From Cynocephalus volans (lineage: Eukaryota > Chordata > Mammalia > Dermoptera > Cynocephalidae), in contig NC_084471.1 in assembly GCF_027409185.1 (NCBI RefSeq), forward strand, positions 8,833,035 to 8,897,034: a DNA stretch of 64,000 nucleotides, given 5' to 3'. This document shows positions 394 to 40,700 of the stretch, piece after piece. Position numbers and translations under genes: made by a program. Every line of letters starts with the position of its first letter. The stretch's first letter is position 1. The notes under the pieces were generated by a model. It saw only the letters and a list, made by a program, of their open reading frames with translations, was not told the DNA's origin and made no database searches.

Positions 394-3300
394 GAGTGTC
401 CTGTGGGGGAGATGAAGTAGAGGCAGCAGTGGACGCGAGTGTCAGGGATGCGCTTCTTCCTGGCGATGTTTACCTCCTCCTTCAGGAACTTCTCGTACTG
501 CTCATTGATGTACTTCTCAATGGGCTCCCAGCTGAGGGGTGGGGGGCAGGGAGATGGATACATCAGGAGGACAGGACCTGGGGCTCCTCTTAGACGTGGT
601 CGATAGCAATCCCCTCCCACCCCTCTCATTTCCTACCTCCCCTGGTGGGTCTAGGATACCTGCGGCCAATTCTCCCTCAGCCTTCCATGGATGGCTTTCC
701 ATGGATAGTCAGCAAGGGTACAACTCCCCAGGGGACCTAACCTCTGCCTGGGCTATCAGAACCTGCAGAGCATGGAAGGTGCAGATGGTTCTCAGTGTGA
801 ATGAAGCTGCACCGTGTTAAGAATCTTCCTGGCAGAGTCTTTAGGGCAGAAATGTCAAAGGCAGACATATACCAGTTTTCATTGTTGATCTGGTCTCCAA
901 AGCCTGGGGTGTCGATGACAGTCAGCTTCATTTTGACACCACCTTCTTCTATCACTGGGGGGTAAAAAAAACATCAGAGAGGTCAGTCCTACAGCTGACC
1001 CCAGGTGCCTAGCCAGGGAAACCCAGGCGTCATCTCTTCTTCAGGACTGATTATTGGAAAAGTTGAGTCCAGGATCTTCCCCACCTCAACACCTTTGCTC
1101 ATGCTTTTCCCTGCACCTGGAATACCCTCCCTACTTCTTTCTACCCATCTAAATTCTATCTATGATTTGTCATCCAGCTCAAGTCTCACTTCTTGAAGTT
1201 CCACGCCCCCCCGTCTCCCTTTCCTGAACTAGCAGCCTAAGGAGTTTGCTTCATAGAGTGCTCAATTCTATTCTGGCTTGAGGTTGCCTCACATTTATCT
1301 TATTTCCAGTAAGACCCATTCTTTCCCCTTTCTGGCAGAGGCCCCCTCTAAACAAAGCCCATAGGGGTCCCTGCCTGGTCCTCACCATGCCCAATAGCTT
1401 TGATCTCCACTGTCTTCGGGATCTTCTCTTCCCGGTTCCAGCTGGAGGCCTTGCGGCTCACTTGGGATTTAAAGAGTGTGTTGACCAATGTTGACTTGCC
1501 CAGTCCACTCTGGCCTGCAGCAAGACAGGAGGAGGAGAAGGTAGGGAGTCCACCCCCTTAGCATATAATACCTCTCCCGTGAGCTTACACAATTCTAGAG
1601 CTGTGATCCAGGCCTACCCCTGTTTACCACTCACTGAGGGATGGAGAGGATGAGTGGAGAGAGCAGGCAGGTGGGAATGGCTTCCTGCTTACTGGAGAGG
1701 GCCTTAGGGAAACATCAGCTGGATTCCATTCTCTCCTTCCTGGAGCCCAGCACCACTGGGAAAGGGGACAACCTCTGCATTTGTCTAGTGCAGCAGTATT
1801 TTGTTTTGGTTTGGCTTTTGCTTAAGTTTTCAGTCTTTAACAATACTAAAAGAAGGCAATTAGTTTGCATTCTGATATTGCCTCATAGCGTATAACACGC
1901 TTCAGATCTGTTAGCAAAATGTGTCTTTATATCAGCGCTGTGAGTCCCGCAGGAGAGCTATCTTTGCCCCCAGTTGAGAGAGATTAATCCTCTTCTAACA
2001 TAAAATATGTGTAAGGCAAAATAACTAGTAAATGCAAGACCAGGGACTTGAACCCAAAGAAACTTTTGGCTCCATATCCACTCCTTATTCTAGTGTGGTG
2101 ACTTTTAAATTGTGCTCCCAGAAGCCCTAGTATCCTGAAGAGATACATGCCAGAGCGGGCCCTGGGAAAGGAGCAGGTGGCTGGGCAGGCAGGGCCCCAG
2201 CCCCGCCTCCATACCCTTCACTACAGCTCCCTTTTTACCTGTTTTCTGCATGCAGTTTTGCAGATTTCATTTCAAGGAGGAGTACCGCAGCTAAAAGCAT
2301 TTGAAAACCACTGGTCTGAGCAGTGTTTCTCAGACTTGAACGTGCACAAGAATCACACAAGAAAGCTTTGCAACTGACAAGCAGCATCAGCATTGCCCAG
2401 ACGCTTGTAGAAAATGCAGAATCTCAGGACCCACCCAAGACCTATGATTCAGAATCTGCATTTTAACTGGGCTTCTGGATGAATCATATGGACAGCAAAG
2501 TCTAAGAAGCACTGGTCTAGAACACTCTATGGTATATTAGAAAAAGGACCTGGCTGGGAGTCGAGAGCCTAGGGCTCTAGACCCAACTGTGCTGTTTTCT
2601 GTGAATGCCTTTGGATTTTGTTTGCCCCTCTAGGCCTTAGTTTCTTTACTAATACAGTGAGAGGGAATTGGATGAGACTGGTTACAGGAAATAAGGGGCA
2701 TTTCTCATTTCAGCTGATCAGCTGGTAATAGCCATCCTAGACCATTATGTTAAAAAGGCTACATATGGGCTCAGTACTAAGCATGTGCCATGACTGACCA
2801 GCAATGTCTGCCACGGGTGCAACCAGGGACAGAAGTGGCCCACATGTCTTGCATTTGCCATTCTTGGACTGGGCTATTGTCAAAGGTTATTTGTTCATTA
2901 AGTATTCCTGAGTGCCAAGTGCTACCCTAGAATTGGAGGTACAGTGGTGAACAAGACATCATCCTTACCCTCAAGGAGCCATTTAGTGTGAGGGAGACCA
3001 AACCATAAGCAGACAATTATACTATGTTGTAATAACCTCTATGAAAGAGGGTATTATAACAGCTTTGCAAAGAGGATCCAATCCAGTCTCTCTGGGATCA
3101 AGGAAGACTTCTAGGAAGAAGCAACAACTAAGCTGAAACCTGAAGGATGACTTTGAATTAGCCACAAGAAGCAGGAAGGGGACTGTAGATAGAGGGAGCA
3201 GCATATGCAAAGGCTCAGAGGTAGGAAAGAGCATGGCAAGTCAAGAACTGTTCCTTTTCAGTGAGCAGTGGTGCTGTGGATTGAATGTCCCCCAAAACTT

Positions 3301-6300
3301 AATCCCCACTCTGACGGTGTTAGGAGGGTGGGAAATCCTATTATGGTAATTGAAAGGTGGGGCCTTAAAAGGTGATTAGATTGTGAGGACCACGCCCAAG
3401 TAAACTGATTAATCCATTGATGGTTTAATGGTGGTCATGAGAGTAGTTCTGAGGGCTTTAAAAGGAGTAGTGAGTTAGCTCTCTCAATTCTGCCATTTTG
3501 CCCTGTGATACCCTGCATTGCTGTAGTCACCACCAGGAAAAGGCCCTCACCAGATGTGTTCCCTGGACTTTGAACTTCCCAGCCCCCAAAACTGTAAACA
3601 ACAAATCTTGTTTCTTTACAAATTACCCAGTTTCAGGTATTTCTGTTATAAGCAACAGAAATGGACTAATACAAGTAGGACACTAGATGGGAGTGGTAAG
3701 AGGTGAGTTGGAGAGGTAGTACCAGACCAGACTAGGATATTGAACCTATCCTGAGGTTAAAGGAGAATTACTGAAGGGTTGCAAATAGGGTGGGTGATTT
3801 GGTGAGTTTTGCAGGTTGAAAAGATTATTTGATCACTGGTGGACAGTGAATTAGAAAGAAGATGGAGAATCAGAAGAGCTGGTGCCACTCTAAGTGTGGC
3901 CTATCCAGCTGCCAGGGTCCATGAACCATTTGCTACCGGTTCTTGAGATCAGAAGTTTGCACCAGAAGATGCAAATTGTGTCACTGAGCACACTGTTTAG
4001 TGCAGCCGATGTTTTTTATAGCAAGACTTTCCAATGATTTATACCCTGGCCCAAGCCCCAGGTGAGCTCATCTTGCTGCAGGTCAGTACTTCGAGCAGCA
4101 CTGAATCAGGTGGCTGTGGCAATCCAGGTGGGAGACCCAGCTCGCCCTAGTAGGTTAGCAGGGGAGATGGAAAGAAAGTGGGCAGACTTGAGAGAATTAT
4201 ATTAAGTGAAATGAGTCAGGCACAGAAAGAGAAATATCAAATGTTCTCACTTATTTGTGGGAGCTAAAAATAAATAAATAAATACACAAATAACCGGGGG
4301 GGGGGGGGGGGGGGGAGAAGACACAACAATTACAATTCCTTGAAGTTGATACGACAAGCGAACAGAAAGGAGGTTGTTGGGAGGGAGGGGGGAGAGGGAA
4401 GAGGGAGGGAGGTTTCGGTAACCGGCCACAATGATCAACCACATTGTATATTGAGAAAATAAAATAAAATTTAAAAAATATAAATAAATAAATAAATAAG
4501 AAAGTGGGCAAACTTAAGAGATATTTACATGGTAAAATGGACAGGAGTTGATGATTGATTAGACTGGGGGATAAAGTAAGAGGAGGAAAGAAGGATAATG
4601 CCCAGATCCCTGTTTCAGCACTGAGTGAACATCTAAGACTGGACAAAGGTCCTTTCCTGCTCTTACATTCTGTGACCCAATGATGCTATTCAGTGGCCAA
4701 ATCCTGGAAGTCCTCTCTAAACTTCAAAGCACTGTAAAAGATAAGAAATAAGACCACCCTTCACCCAATCATCCCACCAGCTTTTGGAGGTAGGGAAGGA
4801 CACTGATGATTCTCCCATGTCACAAACCTGAAAGCAGGCTCAGAGTGATGAAGAGGCTGCCTGCGTACACCCAGCTGGTGATTAGACCAGCCTGCCTACA
4901 CACACCCAAAGCTGCCACCCCTGGATCAGCTAGCCTTGAGGGGAGAAGGGGTCAGGGCTTTGTGATCAGCATGGTGAAATCCTCCTTCCTAGAAAGAGAG
5001 AGCTCATCCTAGAGAAGCCAGGACAAGAAATGGGATCCTCAGTGCTGCCTATCACCAGGCCCTCCAGTGACCCCACACACAGTCTTCCATACCAACAACC
5101 ATGATGTTGAAGTCAAACCCAGTCTTCATGGTCTTCTTACGCATCTGCTCAATGATGGTGTCGATGCCGATGTAGCCCAGCAGGTTGGAGTTGATGCTGA
5201 CAGGCTTCATGGGCACTGCTGGCTTAGGCCTGGGTTCAGGCACCAGCTCTGACATGGCTGCGTCCGTCCTGGTCTCTGGGAGTCCTACAAAGCCAGGGTG
5301 GGAGGGGTGGGCGGGAGGAGAACAGAGGTCACGTAGAAGCCACAGTATTTTTCTCTTGATAGAGAATTCTACAGAGTTGAGACTGGAAAGGACCTTAATG
5401 TCATCATCCAGTTCAGGTCTTTCATTTTATAGACAAAGAGACAGGCCTAGAGAGGAAAGGACTTGCCTAAGGACACAGAGCAGGTCAGATCCAAAATCTG
5501 CACCAGTACCAGGTTCTCCACTTGCTGGGCACTTTCAAATGCACGTCACTGCTCCAAAGCACCACATCTGTGTGTCTAACCCAGGTTTCTCCACCGTGGC
5601 ACTATTGACATTTGGACAATTCTTTATTATGGGGGGTGCTGTTATGTGCATTGTAGGATGTTTAACGGCATCCCTGGCCTCTACTCAATGCCAGTAGTAG
5701 CCCTCAAGTTGTGACAACCAAAACTGTCTCTCGACAGTACCAAATGTCCCCTGGCTGAGAACCACTAGTCTAAAAAATGTCTGCAGTTATTCAGACCTAA
5801 GTCTTGCCTCCCCAAATAAAGGGCAAAGACCCTTTAGGATCTTTGACTAACACCTGTTGACTGTCACTGACCTCAGTTCCTTCGTCTTTTAGAAGCAAAC
5901 AGGGCTAACACTCTCTGCAGAGTGAGCATCACCCCCATCTCCCAGCCTCAGTGTCCCCTCTGTTCCATGAGCACCACTACAAAGTAGGGGCATCTGTACC
6001 CAGAGAAGCCCCAGACAACCTCCTAGCAATAGTTTTGAATCTGTGGGACTAGCAGGGAGGGGATGAGACCCATATGAGGACAGTCATTTGCCTAAGATGA
6101 CACAATGTGCTCTTGCAATGGTGGGTGGCAGAAGAAAGGGGAGGTTGAGGAAAAAGCCCTTTCCCAGTGGGGAAAGGCAAACATCCCTGTGCACACTGGG
6201 AGAAGTCTGTGGCTTTCTTCATCAGGCCACTGTACACAGGGTAGGTTCCAGGATACAGCACCCCCATTTCCCCATCCATAAAATGGGTGTTTGGGGAGTG

Positions 6301-9300
6301 GAATGAGCCTGGCTCTGCTACTTATCAGCCTCGTGGATTTGGGCAGGCCCCCCCCCCGCCCCCTCAGGAGCCTGCTTCCTCTTTCGTGAAGTGGTGGGTC
6401 ACAATTGAGGCTGGGATGAGCCTTACATGAGATATGATGCTTAGAAGCACCTAGCATAGCACCTCACAGTCCCAGACCCTCTTTCCCCTGCCTCAGTGCA
6501 TGTGAAAGCCCTTGTTAAAGGGAGATGCCCCCAGATGCTAATTACACAGGCATAGTTATGGGCTCCACGAGGATGCCTTCCAGCTCTGCCATTCTAGACT
6601 CCTATGGTTCATGCTTACTGCCCTGCAGAGGATCAGCCTTACAGGGAGAACTGATGGAGCAGCAGATGGGCAGGAGGGAGAGGGGACAGGAGTGCCAGCC
6701 TCCCTCACCCCACATCCAGCCAGGAGTTTGCTCTTGTACTACCACCTGGTCCTTCCACCAGTACTGGCAAAACCCTCCTCTCAATGGGAGATTTCTTTCC
6801 CATAAATCCCAGGCACAGCCAAATCTGACAAAGCCTCGGGACCTCCCAGGGCCTGGCGTGGCTCCCTTTTGCTTCCTGGGAAGCTGTTGCCAGCCAGACA
6901 GCTCCAGGCGGCAGCAAGATTGGCTCAGCCCTGCAACAGCTGACTCTCAGCAGCCAGGCCCTGCCCTCCACTCCTCCACTCTCGCACATGGCTCACTGCC
7001 CCACTCAGCACACCTGCACTGGTGGCCAAGGCAGCTGCTACACAGGCTGGCCCTTTTCATCACCATCATGCCACTACAGCTGAGTCCATTTGGTCTCCAC
7101 AACCTGTACTGTGAGATAGCTCCACCTGACAAGTGGGGGAGGTCACATCCCCAGTTTACAGGCCCGGAAGTGAATCTTGTATTTATATGAATACTTACAA
7201 CCCCCCATAAATGTGTGTCCTCATCATGGCCTGCCTGCTCAGCTATGGCCTGTCAACTGCAGCATCCTAAAAGAGTCCCCCCAAAACTCAGACTGATTGA
7301 AAAAGAGGGCCTACTGGATTCCCAAGAATTTCTAGGGGCTACATCAGGCCTGCTACAGGTCCAGGGCATGGACAGATCTCACTTTCATTCTTCAAGCAAG
7401 CATATATGAGTACTCACTGTGTGCACTGTACAGCGCACCTGCTGGCAAGTCAGTCCCCCACCACCACCATATGCCAATTACATGCCAATCACATGCTAAC
7501 AGCCACCCATCAGCCACAAAGACTGCAAACATGCTTCTGGTCACTGTACCACAAGCTTTGCTGGAAGACCTTATGCCCCTCCAGCCCCTGGCTAACTCCT
7601 CCTCTTCCTTAAGCATTCAGTTTAAGTGCTACCCCTCAGGAAAGCTTCTGCTTTCCCGTCTGACATGGATGCCCCTTTTCTGTGCTGCCTCTGTCCCCTG
7701 TGGGTACACCGGTACTTATCACATTCATCCATTCCATCCCATCCAGGCCATTTTATATACTGACAAATGGGAACCTACTCCAGCCAAGCCCTAGACTAAA
7801 TGCCAAGGACACTTTTGTCCCTCAGACAAGGTCATTACCCCCAAGGGTCCACTGTCTTGTGAGGGTGCCTAACTAGTACACAAAGACCTTCAGGGCACAG
7901 AATAAATGGGGCTCTGCAGGTGGATTCTGTACCTCCATTATCTACCCTGGTCCCACTGTGCCAACCTCAAATGGGCAGCTGATGCAGGCTTGAATCCTGG
8001 CTGGGTAATCTCTGTGAGCCTCAGTTTTCTCCTTAGAAAAGTGGGGATAGTACCTGCCTTGCTGGGTTGCTGTGAAGGTTATACAAAATCATGGAGGTAA
8101 ATGACCTGGCACTAAATATATGCTACTTCCCACCCTTCTTTAGGGAAGTGGTCATGTATTATTGATGTGTGTCCCAATGTACACAGCATACCACAGTCGC
8201 TCAGCAATGAATGAATGGATGGTGAATGAATGAAAGCCCCGTGGTGAGGCAGGTGTCACTTCAGAACCATCACTTTTCTGCTCCCTCAGGTACTGCTCCC
8301 TGTGCAGAGCAGCTGACCTGGGCCAGCAAAAAAGGCTGATGTGTAGGCCACAGTCAAGTGGGGTAGACCCGTTAAGAGAGACCTCTTCGCCCCCCTGCAA
8401 CAAGGATTGGGAGGTAGGGGGCACCAAGGGTGAGGAAGAGCTCAGGATGGGGTCGCAGCAGGATGAAGCTTGAGTATGACATCCTAGCTAGATAGTCCTT
8501 GGGGTCCCTCCAAAGCTCCAGCTCTCCCAGGGCCCCTGGACAGGAGGGGACCTGTCTGCTGCACCCCCTGCCAGGAACCACCTGCCCCATCAGTGCTCCA
8601 GGGAGAAGCACTGTCCACCTGACTCAGCTCTGCCCAGGTCCCCACAGAAACAATGCCTCCATCCCCATGCCAAGCAAGGACCCTGGTACTTTCTTTTACA
8701 GGCAAATGAATGGCTTTGTCTTTGTTTGGCCCAGGGACCCCACCCCTCTGCTGGAAGGTGGGAGTAGGGGGAGGGGACCTTTCCAGAATAGCACCTGCCT
8801 CCCTGGCTTAGTGCAGGCCCCCCTCTTCCTTCCCTCCAAGGCTGGGGATCTTCTCCCGACCCCAGAAGCCTTCAAGACCCCACCCCCACCCGCAGAGGCA
8901 ATTCCAGTCCACCTTGGCTCCAGCCCTGAGCTCTCAGAAAAGGAATCACAAAAGATATCTTAGTCCTTCCCCACTCTCAGGAGCAAAGGGCCCTGGGACA
9001 CCCCCTTCCGCCATCCCAGTCCTCTGGAGGCCAACGAATTCCCTTGGAGACCACCAGCTGGTGCCTGTCTCAGCTGTATGTGGGGGAAGGGGATTTATGT
9101 GTCAGCGCACAGGTCTCTTATCTGGCTGTAGGTGGCCCTGGTACCTGTGCGTGGTGTGTATGTGTGTGCGTACCTTGGTGTGCTCCAGAGTGGGGTTTTC
9201 TGTGCGCATCTGGGTCCCTCATTGGGTGTCCGTGGGTCTCGCTATCTCCCTGTGTGTGCCTTTCTCCGAGACTGTATCTCTCGAGGTACGTGCCACCATG

Positions 9301-9450
9301 TGTGCGTGTGTCCGTGCATATGTCACCGCGCGTGGCCTCCTCGGCGCATCAACCCTCCCCCTGGTAGCACCTCCGCCAGCGCTTGCCCAGGACGCAGCCT
9401 CGTCCCGAGGGCCGCGGGGGAGGCCGGCCGTCCGCCCTACCTTTGGACAT
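394..9450 (-). CDS. SEPTIN3: SEPTIN3, neuronal septin GTPase (5' part, partial)
   Basis: Septin-3 is a neuron-enriched GTP-binding cytoskeletal protein of the SEPT3/9/12 group that forms filaments and acts at presynaptic membranes. Minus-strand coding exons, each with GT/AG borders: 9450-9441 (Met-Ser-Lys plus one base), 5284-5093, 1514-1386, 954-873 and 531-394. Phases chain exactly and the translation matches remembered human SEPTIN3 almost residue for residue. Motifs seen: a basic patch (MRKKTMKTGF) before the nucleotide-binding domain; the P-loop GQSGLGKS, split over the 5093/1514 junction; the switch II motif DTPGFGD in the fourth exon; and the KKRIPDTRVHCCLYFISPTGHS region, ending at a TC|GTATGT donor. 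The AKAD specificity motif and C-terminus lie beyond position 1. The first exon lies in a CpG island. A larger alternative first exon lies upstream and has its own entry. Confidence 0.96.
1081..1290 (+). mobile_element. L2 LINE fragment
   Basis: CTTTGCTCATGCTTTTCCCT, CTGGAATACCCTCC and TCAAGTCTCACTTC are typical of L2 3' sequence. It lies in a SEPTIN3 intron. Confidence 0.6.
2326..2519. mobile_element. hAT-Charlie non-autonomous element (MER5/MER20 type)
   Basis: Inverted ends CAGTGTTTCTCAGACTT and AAGTCTAAGAAGCACTG enclose typical sequence (AATCACACAAG, GCATTTTAAC). Flanks GTCTGAG and GTCTAGA approximate an 8-bp duplication. Confidence 0.65.
2890..3240. repeat. Ancient LINE-like repeat, copy 1 of a five-copy family
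   Basis: TTAAGTATTCCTGAGTGCCA, GGTGAACAAGACATCATCC and ATATGCAAAGGCTCAGAGG are shared in diverged form with copies near 10.2-11.0, 32.4-33.7, 36.8-37.2 and 41.3-42.1 kb. I recognise it as an old mammalian repeat but cannot name the family. Confidence 0.5.
3272..3673 (+). mobile_element. Solo LTR, ERVL-MaLR (MST-like)
   Basis: A complete-looking solo LTR of the MaLR group, starting TGCTGTGGATTGAATGT and ending GGACTAATACA. It is bounded by near-identical 5-bp target repeats (AGTGG/AGTAG). It lies in SEPTIN3 intron sequence. No internal retroviral sequence is attached, so it is a fossil. Confidence 0.85.
4195..4497 (+). mobile_element. 5'-truncated L1 3' end with long target duplication
   Basis: A young-looking L1 tail containing ATGTTCTCACTTATTTGTGG, a run of about 20 G, a polypurine stretch and an A-rich tail. 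It is flanked by a 23-bp target duplication with two mismatches (4172-4194 and 4498-4520). It is inserted in SEPTIN3 intron sequence. Confidence 0.85.
5583..5768 (-). mobile_element. hAT-Charlie MER5A-like element
   Basis: Reads GTTTCTCCACCGTGGCACTA through AAATGTCCCCTGGCTGAGAA, the reverse of the MER5A consensus as remembered. It lies in the intron upstream of the second SEPTIN3 coding exon. Confidence 0.7.
7546..7765 (+). mobile_element. L2 LINE fragment
   Basis: L2-like 3' sequence (TTTAAGTGCTACCCCTCAGG, AAGCTTCTGC) in the SEPTIN3 first intron. Confidence 0.5.
7960..8120 (+). mobile_element. MIR SINE
   Basis: GAATCCTGGCTGGGTAATC, GAGCCTCAGTTTTCTCC and CCTGGCACTAAATATATG match the MIR core and tail. 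Confidence 0.65.
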
Positions 9451-10030
9451 GAATCCTCCTTTGTCTCCGTTCCTCCGGGGAGATGCTCAGGGCGCGGGGC
9501 TGCAAGGCTGAGCGGGGACGCGGGCTCCCCCCGGGCCGAGCGGCCCCTGCAGCCGGGCCTCGCCCCTCCGCGCTCTCCGCCCACCCGCCCGGCCCGCGGC
9601 CCCGCCGCGCCGCCCCTGCGCCCCGCGCCCGCCCGGAACCTCGCCTCGGCTCGCTCGGCGCCGCGCTGCCCCTGCCCGCGCGCACCGATGCCGCCGCCGC
9701 CGCGGCCACCCGCACCACGTGACCCGCGCGCCCGCCGGCCCCGCAGAGAGCCCCTCCCCCTCCCGCACGCGCCCGCATGCGGGAGCGGGCACCGGGTCCT
9801 GGCTGCAGGCGGCCCCGGAGGCGCGCCGGGCGCGGTGCCTGCGGGCTCCGGGTGCTCGGCCGGGGAAGATGCCCGCATCTCGGTCCAGTTCTTCCCTCTC
9901 CATCGTGGCCCCTTACCCTCGAGACCGGGGCAGGGCTGGGGGCGCAGGGGACCAGTGGCAGCTGCCGGCGGCCGTGCGCGCGCGTGGGTCACGCGGTGTT
10001 TGGGATGCTGCGCGGGCTCACCGCCGTTCT
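9380..10030 (-). promoter_or_regulatory. SEPTIN3: CpG island promoter of SEPTIN3
   Basis: GC-rich, CpG-dense sequence spans the Met-Ser-Lys first exon (ATG at 9450) and extends about 600 bp upstream on the minus strand. No TATA box is evident, as is usual for CpG-island promoters. TG/TGTG-rich low-complexity sequence lies on its intronic side (about 9150-9320). Confidence 0.75.
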
Positions 10031-10164
10031 GGCCAGACGCCGGCGCCTGGAGAGCCCTGAGTCAGGGGCCCGGGTTCCAGGCCCAGGTGAGGGATGATGA
10101 GCCCTATAACCTTGGCCTAGTCAGGAACTTCCCTGAGCTTCGGTTTACCCATCAGAAAAATCTT

Positions 10165-11045
10165 TCGTGCATTCAGTCAACATTAATGGACAGCATATTG
10201 CCAGGCCCTGGGAGCACAAGAATGAGAATGATCATCCCTGCCCTCGAAAGGTTCTGGGCCTAGTGGAGGAGACAGAAAGAGGACTGTCCCCATGCAGGGG
10301 GTGGTGTTTGCACAGGGTACTGCGCGGATGCCCACAGGTGGGCGCCCTGGGGAGAGAGGGGCTGCAGAAGACTTCTTGGAGGAGGTGAGGGAGATGGTGG
10401 GAAGGAAGACTGGAAGGGCATTCTGCACAGAGTGGGCAGCAGAGGTGAGGAGTTCCAGAGGTGAGGCTGCATGGGGCTGGTGACAGCCCAGAGCTCTGGG
10501 GCGTGGCTGAAGGACAGAAAATTCCAGACGGGGATACAGAGCTCGGAGGTGAAGTCCGCAACCTTGGAAGCCAGGCTAAGGAGCAACTCTAAGGGAAGGT
10601 GAGTCACCTACCAATGTTAAGCCAAAAGTGCTGCCATCAAATATGTGAGACCCCGTGGCAGTTGTTGGGGGGGACGGGGTGGCCTTACAGGGGCAGAGGG
10701 ATGAAGACGAGGGTACAGATAGCCAGTAGGCAAGTACTTAGGAGATAAATCAGCAAGATTGGAAAGCGACTGGACTTGATGGACAGAGAAGAATGAGGAC
10801 ACCCGGGTCTCTAGTCATGAGATAGAAGGTGGCAGAGCCTGCAGCTGAGAGTGAGATCAGGGAGGGCAGGAGTCAGTACAGGACGACAAGGGCTGCCTCC
10901 GGACATGGCTGAGACATCCAGGTAAAGGAGTCCAGCAGGCTGCTGGCCGTCCACGTCTCCATTTCAGGAGAGAAGGCCAGGCTGAAGATGGAGGGAGAGC
11001 TGAGGTCACAGAGCCAGGGTGGAGTCCCAGACTGAGTGTGCAGAG
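10165..11045. repeat. Ancient LINE-like repeat, copy 2
   Basis: Diverged copy with TTCAGTCAACATTAATGGAC, GCCAGGCCCTGGGAGC and ATGAGGACACCCGGGTCTCT, upstream of the SEPTIN3 CpG island. Confidence 0.5.
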
Positions 11046-11390: not shown

Positions 11391-11990
11391 TATACAAGTC
11401 TCCACCTTACCTTTCAGGACTAAGGGGCTGGGGCTGGAGAACCAAGAAAGAGACTTCCAGGTAGGACAGCTTTTAAGCAACAGATGTCTTCCTAAAAGGC
11501 TGAGTGTGAATGGATTTAGTAGGTCTCAGGTGAGGTCATTTTCTCACATCCGGAGAAGTGCTGCAATGATGACTACTGTGAGACAAATCACCATTCACTG
11601 AAAGGCTAGTCTGTATTTTCATGTGGGAGGTTTGCTTTTAAAGCTAGACTCACCTATTTATCACCTGATTATTCCAGCTCTTCACAGAACAAAAAAACCA
11701 CGAGAGATGCTAAAGAGAGGACTCAGCATAATTGCGCCTCCCTGGAAATCTTCCTTTTGATGGCTTCTCCCAGCCTGACCTCTAACTGGCAGGTTGGGAC
11801 CAAACTCCAGGTACACCTCTTATGTTCTGCCCCTCAATTCCTATTCCCTTCTCCCCTAACCACTCAACTCTGACCCTAGAGTCTTACCTCCCTTTCCCAA
11901 CCTATCCAAGCGTGATCCATCTCTAGGCTCATAAACCTGCCTTCCCCTCCAGCAGCCCAGTATATCCCCAACAAAGCTCTCTGCATGTAC

Positions 11991-13612
11991 CTTTAGATTC
12001 TTTGGCCAGGTCCAGCGTGGCAGCCTCTGTTGTAGCATGGTCCAGGGCAGGGCTTGTGCTTCTGCTTGGCATCAGTGAGTAGGTAGCAATGTCTGATGTG
12101 GTCAGGTTATTGACACTGTCCAGTGTGGTCCCAATGGCTGAGTCTGGGGTGACTGGCACACCTGAACCCATGGCTGTGCCCAGCCTGCTTGTGTCCAAAG
12201 CAAGAGGATCCATAGTAGTGCCCAGCTTGGCTGTATTTGCTCTAGCCAAAGTCAAAACTGTGCCCAACCTGTTTGTGCCCAATGTAGCTATGGTTGTGTC
12301 CAGCTTCATTGGATCTAGTGTTGCCAAATCCATGGCTGTGCCCCCTGTGGTCATATCTGGCTTGGCTGTAACTGTTGTAACCATAGCTTTGCCCAGCTTG
12401 TCTGGGTTTGAGGTTATCAGATCCATGACTACGCCCTGCTTGGTTGCCCCTACTGTGGTCAAATTCATAGCAGTGCCTGTTGGAGCCACGTTCATGGCTT
12501 TGCCTGACTTGGCTGTGCCAGCTGTAGACAAGTCCATGACTGTATCCACCTTGGTATTCAGAGTGGGGAACTCTGTGCCTGTGTCCCATCTGGATGTGTT
12601 TTGTGTGGCCAGATTGATAGCCAAGCTAGGTCTGTTTTTGGCCATTGTCACTAAGTGTCTGGCTATGTCTGGCCTTGTGTCCACAGAAGACAAATTCATA
12701 ACAGGGGTGGCCCTTTGGAGACGCAGCCGGGATCTGGGGATACCCCTGGGCCGGGACTTGCTTCTTCCTGGAGAAGCTCTGGTAGGCATGTGGGCGGTCA
12801 TGGGTACAGGGTGCCCCTGACCCACTGGGCCTGGCCCAGCAAGGCTTGATGAACCCTTGGCTAACCGGGATTGGAAAGGTAAGGCCAGGTATGAACTCAC
12901 CAGAGGCTTCTCCACTATGGACATCTTGCTGGGTTTGGTCAGACCTGGGTTCTCTGGGCCTTTGGAGTGGACCCGGCCCCCTGGCACTAGGGTCATGGGT
13001 GGTGAGCCTGGAGAGGACAGCCTCCCTTCTCTGTGGATGGCAGACTCCCTGCCTGGGGTGGGCAACTCTTTCCAGTGAGAAAGTAGAGGGTCCAGAGGCC
13101 GTGCTTGGCTGTTCTGACGGAGTGTTAAGGAGATGGAGCTGAGCTTCCTGGGCACAAGGCTGTTGGCAGGCAGGGGGTTCAGGGCAGCTCCTGGGGCAAT
13201 GCCAGTCTCCTGTGGGGGCTCACTCTGGGCTCTGGCTCCAAGGCCCAATCGGCTGGAAGTCTGTGGAATATGGCTTTGGGGAAAGGCATCCAGATGGATA
13301 GTCTTCCTGAGGACAGGAACGAGGGGGGACACCCCTCCAGAGAGCCTTGCTGGGTGGGTAGGGCGCCCCAGCATGTGGCTGCGGGAGAAGGAAGTTCCAG
13401 AGCCTGGGGCTCTGTGTGGCTGCATCTCTGGAGGAAGAGGAGCAAAGTCATGGTCCATCCAGGCCTTTCGTCTTTCCTTGAGGCAATCAACAGAGAAGGA
13501 GCCAGGCAAGGTGCTCAGCCTGGAGGTCTCAACCCCCTCTCCTGACCAGCACTGGCACTGCCAGGTCTGAAGGGACCTTGTTTGGGGGACTGTCAAGTCC
13601 TTAGTGGACTTT
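11991..13612 (-). CDS. SEPTIN3: Candidate large alternative 5' coding exon of SEPTIN3
   Basis: The minus strand is open from just after a stop near 13613 down to a strong donor (AAAG|GTACAT) at 11991/11990, about 540 codons. The donor leaves a single G, the same phase and the same AAA-G ending as the Met-Ser-Lys first exon. Splicing to the SEPTIN3 exon at 5284 therefore reads ...AKESK-GLPETRTDAAMSEL in frame. The first in-frame ATG is at 13458 (MDHDFAPLPP), giving about 489 added residues; an upstream exon could supply another start. The translation is Pro/Ser/Thr/Gly-rich and predicted disordered. It has a basic stretch (RSKSRPRGIPRSRLRLQR), then a degenerate repeat array before the donor. 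SEPTIN9 is known to use long N-terminal extensions, which makes this plausible. Coding status and splicing are inferred, and no homologous domain is recognised. Confidence 0.72.
12100..12710 (-). repeat. Degenerate coding repeat array in the SEPTIN3 alternative exon
   Basis: The translation of this part repeats a unit of roughly 17-25 residues, approximated by MDLxTxxTxKLGxAM. Recognisable units include MDLSTAGTAKSGKAM, MDLITSNPDKLGKAM, MDLATLDPMKLDTTI and MDPLALDTSRLGTAM. Units are diverged and uneven in length, so this is an old internal duplication rather than a young satellite. The reading frame stays open across all units. Confidence 0.7.
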
Positions 13613-15006
13613 TGCTATAGTCCTCCTACAGCTCCTACCTGATGCAGACCTACACACCTCACACACACACCCAGCAGCTACCGCGCAGGGAGACGTGGGC
13701 ACATCCAAAGCAAACAGGCTGCCTCTGGCAGGAGTGAGCTCAGGGGTGGGGTTTACCTCTCTCTTTGCCTGGGCCTGGGTGTGGCTACTCTCTGTGGACC
13801 ACTCCGTGGAGGTCACATACACCGTTCAGGGACCCCGGAGGAGAGCAGTGGTTACTGGAGACCTATCTGCCTCCGTCTTCCAGAAGGAGCCAAAGGGCTC
13901 TGGGTTCCCACCTACAGCAGCCAAAACAGGAGTTCAAGTGTCCAGGTTCAAGACTGAGGATGACCAATTTGGCTTGAGAACAGGGTCTGGATCTGGGGCT
14001 CCTGCCCAGGACCAGTAAAGAGCCCAATGCTGGGCTGGCCTCATGCTGGAGCCAGGATCAGAGCCAGGGCTGGAGAAGGTGAAGCTGGAAGTGGGGAAGG
14101 GATGAGTGTTTACAGGAGGCTTCTCCAGTGAACAAGTCACAGCCCCTGCCCTTGGAGAGCCGCCATCGCTGGGGTGCCAGGCGAGGGAGCAGGCAGGGCT
14201 ATGCAAGGGTAAGCATTAGGGGTAAGCTTAGTTCAGTCTCCAGTATCAAAGGAGGCAGACTGGGCCTGGGGTTGGGCAGTTCATACAGAAGGCCCAGAGG
14301 TGAGAATGTGTGGCATATTTCTGAAAATCCAATATGGGGCTCCTACGTTGCATCTAGAAGTGGGGGGGAGACAGGCTGCAGGTGAGCTGCGGTCCAGACC
14401 AGGCTACAGTGATACTCAGGCCTTGGAAGATGACCTAGTCAGATCTGCAGGTGGGAATGGTCACTCAGGAAGTGTGACAGAGTGATCAGAGGGGAACAGA
14501 ATTGAGGCAAGGAGCCCCATGGGGACGTAGTGAAATGCTCAGTGGGCTGTGGAGGTGGCCAGGGCAGGGCTGGAGAAGTTACCCAGCACAGGGGTAGAAG
14601 CAACTGGACTGCCCAGAGGTGGGAGTGGAAGAGGAGAGGGGGTACTGAGGGTAATGCTCAGGACTCTGGCTGTTGGTCTGGGTAGATGGGCTGTTCCCTA
14701 AGGTGGGCTCCAGGGCCCCCAGATAGCCAGCTGGTACCCACTCTGAGCTCCATATAACTCACTCTGCCACAGAGTTGTCCCAGTTGCTTTCAATACAGCA
14801 GGCTGGGACATGCTGCTGAGGGGCCAGGCCAGGGCTGGCAGGAGGGGTTAGTTCCAAATGTAAGGGGCTCATGTGGGAGTGGAGAGATCTTATAGCCAGG
14901 TCCCTAAGTTCTGAGGCAGAGACAGGGAGGGCAGGACACCGGAGGGGTCTCCATCATCCCTCACAATGGTACTCCCAGCCCCTCATCTCTTTCCAGCCAT
15001 GTTTCA

Positions 15007-37700: not shown

Positions 37701-40700
37701 TTGTATACATCCATATTTATCATTTTACAAGCATGAGTCGCTTTGTAATTAAAACTAGTTTAAAAAAATTAAAGGACAAAATATTCCTTCAGTGATGTTT
37801 CTCGTCACCCTCCTCTCATTCTCTGGCCTCTCTAAGATCAGAAAAGCAGGGGCTTCTGTTTCTCCATTGTAAAGTTTTGTCTTCTGGTTTGTGTTCTTGC
37901 CCTGGTCTGGCCACCCCAGCCTCCAGAATGTAGAGAGGTCCCTGCACCATGTGGATGCCAGCTTTTTCCTGGGGAAGGTGTGCTTCCTCACCACGGGTGG
38001 TAAGTGCCTCCCTCACCTGCTACTGCCAACCCCCAAACAAGAGAAAGTAGTGGCGGTTGTAGACTCTTGCTAAGGCAGCCCAGGTGATAGAACAAGGGCT
38101 TTAGAATCTGACCTGTTGTCAGTCTTTCTAAAAGAAATCTGAGCAGATAATTCTGCTGTTGCTTGGAATTGCCTAGTGATTCCCCGTGGCTTTCAGACTA
38201 AAATCCAACCTCTCCAAAGACACAAAGTATTTTGCAGTTTGGCCTCTGCCTTCTTGTCCATCTCATCTCCTGTTCTCTCATTCTTTGGGTCAGCTCATAG
38301 TTCTCTGAAAAAGTCCTGCTGTTCCTGAGACGTTGTAACATTAACAGTGGAAATAATAATAGCTAACCTTTATTGAACTCTCACTGTGCACCAGACACTG
38401 TTCATAGTTGCTTTGTTTTTAAGATCATATTAATTTTTGAGCTAGGTATTATCGTCTCAGTTTTATAGCCAAGGAAACTGGTCATGAGGTTAAGTAACTT
38501 GCCCAAGGCCCCATAGCTAAATAATGGTGGAACTGAGATTCACACCTAGATAGTCCTATTCCAGGGCCCGTCCTCTTAATGATTACTGTATGGCTTCTCT
38601 CAAATCCTTTCTTCCTATTCTTTGTCTTGCTAACCCCTACAAATACCTGAGAACTCAGCTCCACTGTCACCTCTAGCATCAATGACATGTCTAACCCGTC
38701 CACCTCCCCAGCTGAACTGTGAGCTCCTTGAGAGGGGGCGTGGCGCAGACTGTTCTCAATAAGTATTGGTGAATAAGTGAATGCCATGTAATTTCTAGAT
38801 ACCATTTCATTGACTTGCTACAGTAACTCAGTGGGGTAGTAGCTGTTATTTTATAGACGAGGAAACTTGTATATTTATAGAGCACTCTCTAAAAGCCATT
38901 TAAACCTTATTGTCTGATTTGATGATCTTGACTGCCCAGAAAAGAACGTAGAACAGGATTGTCACCGCATGGACTAGTAAGAAACTGAGACCCGGAGGGG
39001 GAAAGTGATTTGCCTAGTGCTTTCTGGATTACAGCCATGGAGGTAGAGATAACAGCCTGTAACATTCACGGCTTCTTTGCAGCTGGGCGGGAGAGCCACT
39101 GCAGCATTCACCGGAATACCGTCGCAATGCTGGCCCACACCTACCGGAGCCCCCTGCTCTTCTGTGACCTGGAGGTGAGGACACTGATCACAGTGGCTGA
39201 TGTTACACTTGATTGTGGGGAAAGGGCAGTCAGCACACAGTGGACATGTCTGGAATGCTTAGTGAAGGGTTCTGGAATGCCAAGTGAGATGGTTCTTGAT
39301 GTGAAGGGAGACACAGGGTCTGGGTTCAAATCCTGGCTCTTCTGCTCACTGGCTATGATCTGGGTGGGTCACCCTAAGCCTTGGGTTACACGAATTAAAG
39401 TAGGGGTGATGTGCATTCCTCTTGAGTGCCCCTTATGCCAGGCTCTATTTCTTGTTGCCTTGCTTTTTCTTTTCCTTAGTTTCTTTGTACTTATAACTAA
39501 GCCTTTGCATGTGTTTGTGGATCTGTGTTAATATCTCACTCTCCTGCTAAACTGTAAGTCCTTGTGAGGCCAGGCATCATGTCTATCTCATTAGCCAATG
39601 CATCCTTGTTTCCCCCTGGCAGTCAGGACACCACCCTTACCTCCCTGGATTGCAGACCTTGTCCAGTCCCCGCCCAGAGTAGGGCACTCAGCAGACAGGG
39701 ATATTTGTTGGTTGGGTGGGTAAACGGTTGGATGGTTTTGAGGTTCATGTTTCTGCTCTATTCTGGACCTTGCATCTGTTCCCAAAAGCACCATGATGTC
39801 ATGCAGAGAGAACTGAGTCAGCACACAATCCTTCCCCACCAGCTAGATCAAGGGTTCTTATTCTGTGGTGTGTGGATCCCTCTGGTCTGAGGGCAGAATT
39901 CAGGGAATCTGTGAACTTGAATGAGAAAAAGAAATTACTCCTTTTTTCCTACTAAACTCTAAGTGAAATTGAGCATCATGAATGTAGGCAACAGATGTCA
40001 GTAGTGTTAGCAGAGCCTGTGACTGTTACCAGTAGAGATGGCAGATGTTTTCATATCACATTAGGGTTGGGTGGATCTCATCCCTATGTCAACATGAATC
40101 ATTAGATCTGCCCTAGATCGCCCTAGATCAGTGCATCAGTAAAGATACACATGCTACTCTATCACTACGTTGTTTCTCATATTTGATGGCTGTTTTTAGA
40201 ATCCCTGACTAGAGGGGCGGGGGGTGGGGAGAAAAAAAAAAAAAAAAAGAATCCCTGACTAGATAGACACTCTGATCTCACAGATGGGACTCTGAGGCCT
40301 GGGCTCACCTAAGTGCCTGCCCCTTCCAGGCTTTCCTCACAGCAAACCTCTGAGGAAACCGAGACTCAAAGAAGAGATGACTTGCTCACGGTTACACAGA
40401 GAGGAAGCAAGTGGCAGAGCCAGCCGGTTGGTCTGCTGACTGTGTGGATTTAACAAGTCACTTACCCTCCTCGAAACCTCCGTTTTCTTATCTCTGAAGG
40501 GGAATGAGTCATAATCTTTCCTCCAGGACTTATTGCCTGTGGGTAGTGGTGGTGCTTGCTAACCTTGTGACAGATAGTGCAGTTCTGCATGTGGCCATGA
40601 GGTGGCGGGCCATACCAGGTCCTAGGTTCTCTTCTATTCTGAGAACTTCTGTCTTCAACAAAACGCCAGAGACTGCATGGAAAGTGAAGCAGGAGGCCCC

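Follow-up and report, generated by a model that had tools for sequence, protein, structure and literature searches.

The SEPTIN3 locus of the colugo Cynocephalus volans raises the question of whether a very long open frame, lying upstream of the standard first coding exon, belongs to the gene and, if so, what kind of septin it would make. The frame was found on the minus strand of the window, by which we mean the whole 64,000-nucleotide stretch of DNA that was analysed. From stop to stop it covers 561 codons (11929-13614, minus strand), running past a splice donor to the stop at 11929, and among the 60 frames of this kind with 150 or more amino acids that were listed for the window it is the longest. 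An in-frame TAG stands just 5' of the frame, and the first methionine is at 13458 (MDHDFAPLPP...); from this Met to the donor at 11991 there are 489 codons plus one base (11991-13458, minus strand). Position 13612 is off the codon boundaries of this frame, which fall at 13614 and 13611, and the slice 11991-13612 therefore translates out of frame with stops. The initial annotation had described an open frame on this strand and considered it very unlikely by chance, and both points hold. Simulated sequences of 7.7 kb, 300 each at Markov orders 1, 2 and 3, gave longest stop-free runs of 335, 330 and 471 codons, respectively; with the frame's own composition, 489 codons were reached in none of 2000 simulations at order 1 and none of 2000 at order 2. 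Over the Met-to-donor stretch, the other frames carry 28 and 6 stops on the minus strand and 25, 17 and 4 on the plus strand.

The splice signals connect the frame to SEPTIN3. The giant exon ends in AAAG at 11991 and the intron begins with GTACAT (11985-11990, minus strand); this donor (11991/11990) fits seven of nine positions of the donor consensus, and the donor at 9441 of the alternative standard first coding exon likewise fits seven of nine. The latter exon, ATGTCCAAAG (Met-Ser-Lys; 9441-9450, minus strand), supplies the ten coding bases that start the short form. Both first exons end in AAAG and enter exon 2 (GLPETRTDAAM...NIMVV, 192 nt; 5093-5284, minus strand) in the same phase. The giant exon thus splices from 11991 to 5284 on the same strand and in frame, with splice sites and phase present in the sequence, as the initial annotation had proposed. 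Downstream are exon 3, which encodes the P-loop GQSGLGKS and is missing in some isoforms (129 nt; 1386-1514, minus strand), and exon 4, which starts with VIEEGGVKMKLTVIDTPGFG and whose first 61 nt (894-954, minus strand) were taken for the joins. The four-exon join (13458-11991, 5284-5093, 1514-1386 and 954 onward) is open. Without exon 3, the join (13458-11991, 5284-5093 and 954 onward) yields the beginning of X2 (P0002), a colugo protein at NCBI; without exons 2 and 3 (13458-11991 and 954 onward), it yields that of X4 (P0001). The predicted product of roughly 840 residues is also of the right size: the long forms come to about 740-850 residues depending on the isoform, and in colugo, with all exons, to about 844 by arithmetic.

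Exon 2 and the P-loop exon 3 (1514-1386) are present in some of the annotated long septin-3 forms and absent from others. Those lacking exon 3 lack GQSGLGKS, and from their sequence normal nucleotide binding would not be expected. In human cortex, an (AGG)n repeat that colocalises with schizophrenia is reported to be linked to the skipping of exon 2 (PMC13174678). Just past the first Met, at 13428-13443, GCTCCTCTTCCTCCAG has the look of a possible acceptor; a transcript using it would begin at Met 13425, which is the start of several listed proteins (MQPHG/MQQHG). Two further frames of the window were noted on the plus strand. One, of 483 codons, runs antisense through the CpG island of the short form (8812-10263), has no Pfam match and is probably due to high GC; the other (38989-39528) matches CENP-M (E 3.3e-7). 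CENPM and SEPTIN3 are named as neighbours of SMIM45 in another paper (PMC13205175).

Is the exon hidden, as the initial annotation had it? It is not, because the sequence databases already carry it. Along its entire length, the translated exon is 100% identical to the neuronal-specific septin-3 isoforms X2 (801 aa) and X4 (737 aa) of Cynocephalus volans at NCBI, so that the window matches the Philippine colugo, and the human septin-3 isoforms E, F, G, H and I (813, 792, 784, 749 and 741 aa) carry it as well, as do many other placental entries at NCBI. The human names E-I are without the X of predicted models, and under NCBI naming practice this points to curated records. These entries represent the same exon of the same gene with no difference from what is described here; at NCBI the proteins are named and no function is assigned to the exon. 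The septin domain itself is present in the long proteins: bonobo X6 (P0018) matches PF00735 at E 1.5e-114, and PF00735 is listed for the colugo proteins P0001 and P0002. A search for septin-3 proteins of at least about 470 aa, of which 120 of 3,265 matches were listed, adds long proteins of mouse, rat, tree shrew, mole, pangolin, tenrec and marsupials, as well as of crocodilians, turtles, lizards, snakes, birds, amphibians and a lungfish. In annotated proteins the exon is stop-free in 17 placental orders (assigned from species names). Individual models vary. In P0008 (bonobo), P0045 (naked mole-rat), P0061 (Callospermophilus) and P0086 (dromedary), the exon ends in non-septin sequence or in donor read-through. 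Extra residues stand between the usual exon end and exon 2 in P0281 (rat) and in P0284 and P0292 (marsupials), which suggests splicing from a donor that lies further 3' or the inclusion of an additional small exon. With the pattern used, the N-terminal part ahead of exon 2 comes to only 341 residues in the tiger protein P0108 and to 440 in painted dog; this shortness may be a deletion or an error of the pattern or the model. No paper on a long septin-3 form was among the literature matches listed, including those for accession numbers of the human long form, and section 7 of a review has no mention of a long septin-3 arm (PMC8640212).

Taken together, the frame is a real, ancient, coding and already annotated first exon of SEPTIN3. 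We propose, with a probability of roughly 0.8, that it is an alternative first coding exon used from an upstream promoter, giving a long septin-3 with a disordered, motif-bearing arm. The short form, which has about 358 residues in human, has exons 2 onward and their phase in common with the long form; it differs in its CpG-island start, its ten-base coding exon and the absence of the 489-residue arm. A CpG island covers the first exon of the short form (9001-10000; CpG o/e 0.65 and 0.98, GC 0.63 and 0.82), whereas over the giant exon and the DNA upstream no 500-base bin between 11001 and 18000 has a CpG o/e above 0.18. The downstream CpG-island promoter would then make the known short form with its Met-Ser-Lys start, and a second promoter would lie upstream of 13458, outside the island. 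A transcript starting upstream of 13458 would splice 11991 to 5284 and thus place a 489-residue disordered arm before the GTPase domain.

A first alternative is that the exon mainly makes a separate, non-septin protein, ending by donor read-through or in other terminal exons, and that the septin join is minor or a product of annotation. The protein search with the exon found 187 proteins at E <=1e-3, and the counts rest on the 120 listed; septin sequence is present in 98 of these, mostly gene models, and absent from 22. The idea would account for these 22; among NCBI models, some run into the intron (bonobo X1, 561 aa, and naked mole-rat LOC110349326) and others finish in other sequence (dromedary LOC135322504 and Callospermophilus ACOB7L_014135). 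It would fit the lgn/ena-only entries among the 120, relatives found only in SRA or metagenome assemblies: each of the 11 continues past the donor, as genomic DNA does, and none has septin sequence. However, genomic DNA would be expected to produce just such read-through on short contigs, and annotated long septin-3 proteins, mostly models and with N-termini that differ in length, range from salamander to human. We therefore consider a mainly separate protein unlikely.

The same entries bear on how widely the long form is made. Comparable lgn/ena entries of SEPT9 carry the GTPase domain in 18 of 18 cases, on contigs of up to 4,237 bases, which is what spliced cDNA would give. Because SEPT9 is expressed ubiquitously, this difference suggests low or narrow expression of the long septin-3 and not its absence. 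One long septin-3 among the 120 of 3,265 matches listed, rat P0281, has lgn among its sources. In a 2022 study, which speaks of isoforms A, B and C, septin-3 of primary neurons runs at about 40 kDa by blot (PMC9356936). Such a band has the size of the short form. From the read-through entries and this band, the long form is probably rare, restricted or overlooked.

What kind of arm would the exon provide? The exon has no Pfam match (E up to 1) and no PDB match by sequence search, and AlphaFold2, with 43 sequences, gave a mean pLDDT of 43.5 with none of 489 residues at 70 or above. Such low values are consistent with disorder of the septin-3 arm. Residues 1-250 have a net charge of +20 and the remainder -1. 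The 3' half is rich in Thr and Ala and has a degenerate repeat with a period of 14 aa or 42 nt (11992-12711, minus strand; z 4.7 at lag 14 aa, z 7.1 at lag 42 nt); Tandem Repeats Finder at score 30 found no array in the exon. Thus, the initial description of a disordered, repeat-bearing N-terminus agrees with a low-complexity sequence of 14-aa period and with the predicted disorder. Within the arm, the best conserved 20-residue bins, by mean majority frequency, are 41-60 (0.90), 181-200 (0.88) and 101-120 (0.86), followed by 161-180 (0.85). The first lies in block A, residues 31-66 (colugo GRPTHPARLSGGVSPLVPVLRKTIHLDAFPQSHIPQ; 13261-13368, minus strand), which can be aligned with sauropsid and salamander sequences. 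Block B, residues 101-116 (LVPRKLSSISLTLRQN; 13111-13158, minus strand), lies in the bin 101-120 and is aligned to amniotes and salamanders; its RKLSS, within RKLSSISLTLR, is a candidate basophilic-kinase site. Block C, residues 181-200 (IVEKPLVSSYLALPFQSRLA; 12859-12918, minus strand), is seen in mammals, and its wallaby counterpart is EKPLLTSHLTLPLQ. Among the simple motifs R-x-x-[ST], [ST]P, K/R-K/R and P-x-x-P, none exceeded z 1.7 in nine species, except R-x-x-[ST] in wallaby (z 3.3).

A long disordered arm, basic and then near-neutral, before a GTPase domain recalls SEPT9, and the initial annotation had drawn a parallel to the long SEPTIN9 forms. The parallel stands for the layout: SEPT9 is of the same septin subgroup, and its long isoforms have a long disordered N-terminus of isoform-dependent length. 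In the sequence, no relation was detected. Compared by hhalign with a shallow mammalian SEPT9 profile (6 sequences, Neff 1.6), both septin-3 profiles gave a probability of 0.1%. K/R-x-x-D/E, which occurs 15 times in the first 180 residues of human SEPT9 against 3.4 expected (z 7.7; wombat z 7.1), is found twice in the first 250 colugo residues against 1.5 expected (z 0.5), and is unenriched in the septin-3 arms of all nine species (z between -2.0 and 0.5). It is thus very unlikely that the exon and the SEPT9 N-terminal domain are ohnologues sharing one mechanism, the binding of microtubules by K/R-x-x-D/E repeats, for all the likeness in subgroup, charge and disorder. A SEPT9-type N-terminal domain is accordingly not supported for the arm, there being no match to the shallow SEPT9 profile and no K/R-x-x-D/E clusters.

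The two halves of the arm differ in conservation. Residues 1-250 are closer to colugo than residues 251-489 in 28 of the 28 placentals compared (identities of 0.75 and 0.69 in bonobo, 0.70 and 0.53 in cattle, and 0.55 and 0.46 in rat), and the repeat half evolves faster than the N-terminal half on these protein comparisons. Conservation of the exon as a whole falls far below that of the septin part (0.713 versus 0.991 in mean majority frequency, in 37 full rows of 43). In a neutral simulation, the colugo exon was mutated until a set residue identity was left and the stops were counted. At 73% identity, there were 3.65 stops on average and 3.3% of runs were stop-free; the stop-free share was 0.5% at 67% and at 61%, and 0 of 400 runs at 56%. 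None of the 28 placental proteins, whose identity is 51-75%, contains a stop, and in most mammals the proteins listed are free of both stops and frameshifts. Annotation, however, prefers open frames: what NCBI, UniRef and nr contain are gene models, or records chosen because their frames are open, so that the intactness of the exon is partly ascertained. The comparison is supporting, not decisive, for selection on the exon. A chance or neutral frame held open by repeat-like composition is scarcely credible: the degenerate 42-nt repeat of the less conserved 3' half could keep a frame open, but composition-matched simulations fell short of 489 codons, and the non-repeat half is also stop-free, is better conserved in all 28 placentals and has relatives outside them.

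The alternative first exon of SEPTIN3 is also old. Sequences were cut before exon 2, and 100 shuffles were made of each of 16 non-placental sequences; the untrimmed HMM test had matched 16 of 16 non-placentals with the exon-2 part still in, and only the trimmed result was used because the untrimmed sequences held this shared exon. The placental HMM matched wallaby (4.6e-22), Rhineura (3.1e-9), alligator (1e-8), turtle (6.7e-8), Anolis (1e-7) and Pogona (3.2e-4), with a best shuffle of 0.033, and Lacerta (0.0048) and a snake (0.012) were barely better than this shuffle. Conversely, the sauropsid HMM matched seven of seven placentals (7.2e-11 to 0.0051) and the salamander Pleurodeles (1.1e-8), with a best shuffle of 0.21; its matches to emu (5.7e-4), wallaby (0.014) and Lissotriton (0.049) were weak against the same shuffle. 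The bilby was matched by the joint amniote HMM alone (0.0019; best shuffle 0.22). After trimming, caecilian, frog and manakin gave no match, and lungfish, at 0.32, was no better than shuffles. The placental and sauropsid exon profiles align with each other (probability 97.9%, E 5.9e-13), and the start residues, MDHDF and MDKDF, also correspond. With relatives in wallaby, alligator, turtle, lizards and a salamander, the exon is at least that old, and its N-terminal part is most likely at least as old as the salamander-amniote split, to judge from these profiles.

Two SxIP-like sites lie in block A. At site 1, residues 37-40 (13339-13350, minus strand), [ST]-x-[IL]-P is present in 39 of 43 aligned placentals, mostly as SRLP, SKLP or SRIP; it is missing in four, namely colugo, which has ARLS, Fukomys (P0049), Nannospalax (P0071) and painted dog (P0118). 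Site 2, SHIP at residues 62-65 (13264-13275, minus strand), is found in 31 of 43. Thirteen further placentals have [ST]-x-[IL]-P in six and lack it in seven (mouse, rat, Grammomys, Cricetulus, Arvicola, tenrec and pika); these seven include five of five murid and cricetid rodents examined. At the matching place in sauropsids, seven of eight reptiles have SRIP or SSIP and neither of two birds has the motif; both salamanders have TRLP. When the columns of the 43-row alignment were permuted 1000 times, at least 38 rows held the motif in 1.4% of runs and at least 40 in 0.4%. The site was picked post hoc, once five other types of motif had been tried, and several losses of it have occurred; it is thus a lead. 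It resembles the SxIP motif of EB-binding +TIP proteins and is a candidate of this kind, lying in a predicted disordered stretch and kept in many species; it differs in its absence from colugo, the five murid and cricetid rodents examined and some others.

On our preferred account of a long septin-3 made from an upstream promoter, the arm may act as a flexible tether leaving the septin-3/septin-3 centre of the octamer. It could present two conserved motifs: in block A the [ST]-x-[IL]-P, of the EB/SxIP type, that many species have, and in block B the kinase-type R-K-L-S-S. The long septin-3 could thus recruit partners to which the short form is unable to bind, or be regulated by them. The evidence is best read as a flexible arm that bears motifs and belongs to a minority form of septin-3. 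A bolder version, which we regard as speculative and improbable, is that the long septin-3 is an ancient tetrapod microtubule plus-end or cytoskeletal linker, whose disordered arm would bind EB proteins through an SxIP site that some lineages have lost and would be switched by a kinase at the R-K-L-S-S block, unlike the arm of SEPT9. If this were true, the linker arm would give septin octamers a way of recruiting partners that is independent of SEPT9 and works differently.

The initial interpretation of the exon as a coding, hidden and SEPTIN9-like first exon of SEPTIN3 is thus partly supported, and the exon is one that sequence databases already know. If the long form is made, much of what the gene produces may escape constructs and antibodies designed from the short form, and human variants in this stretch would need to be read as coding. 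The SEPTIN3 locus is reported to colocalise with schizophrenia through exon-2 skipping (PMC13174678). For septin specialists, the surprise would be a further mammalian septin gene with a long, old and, by structure prediction, probably disordered arm.
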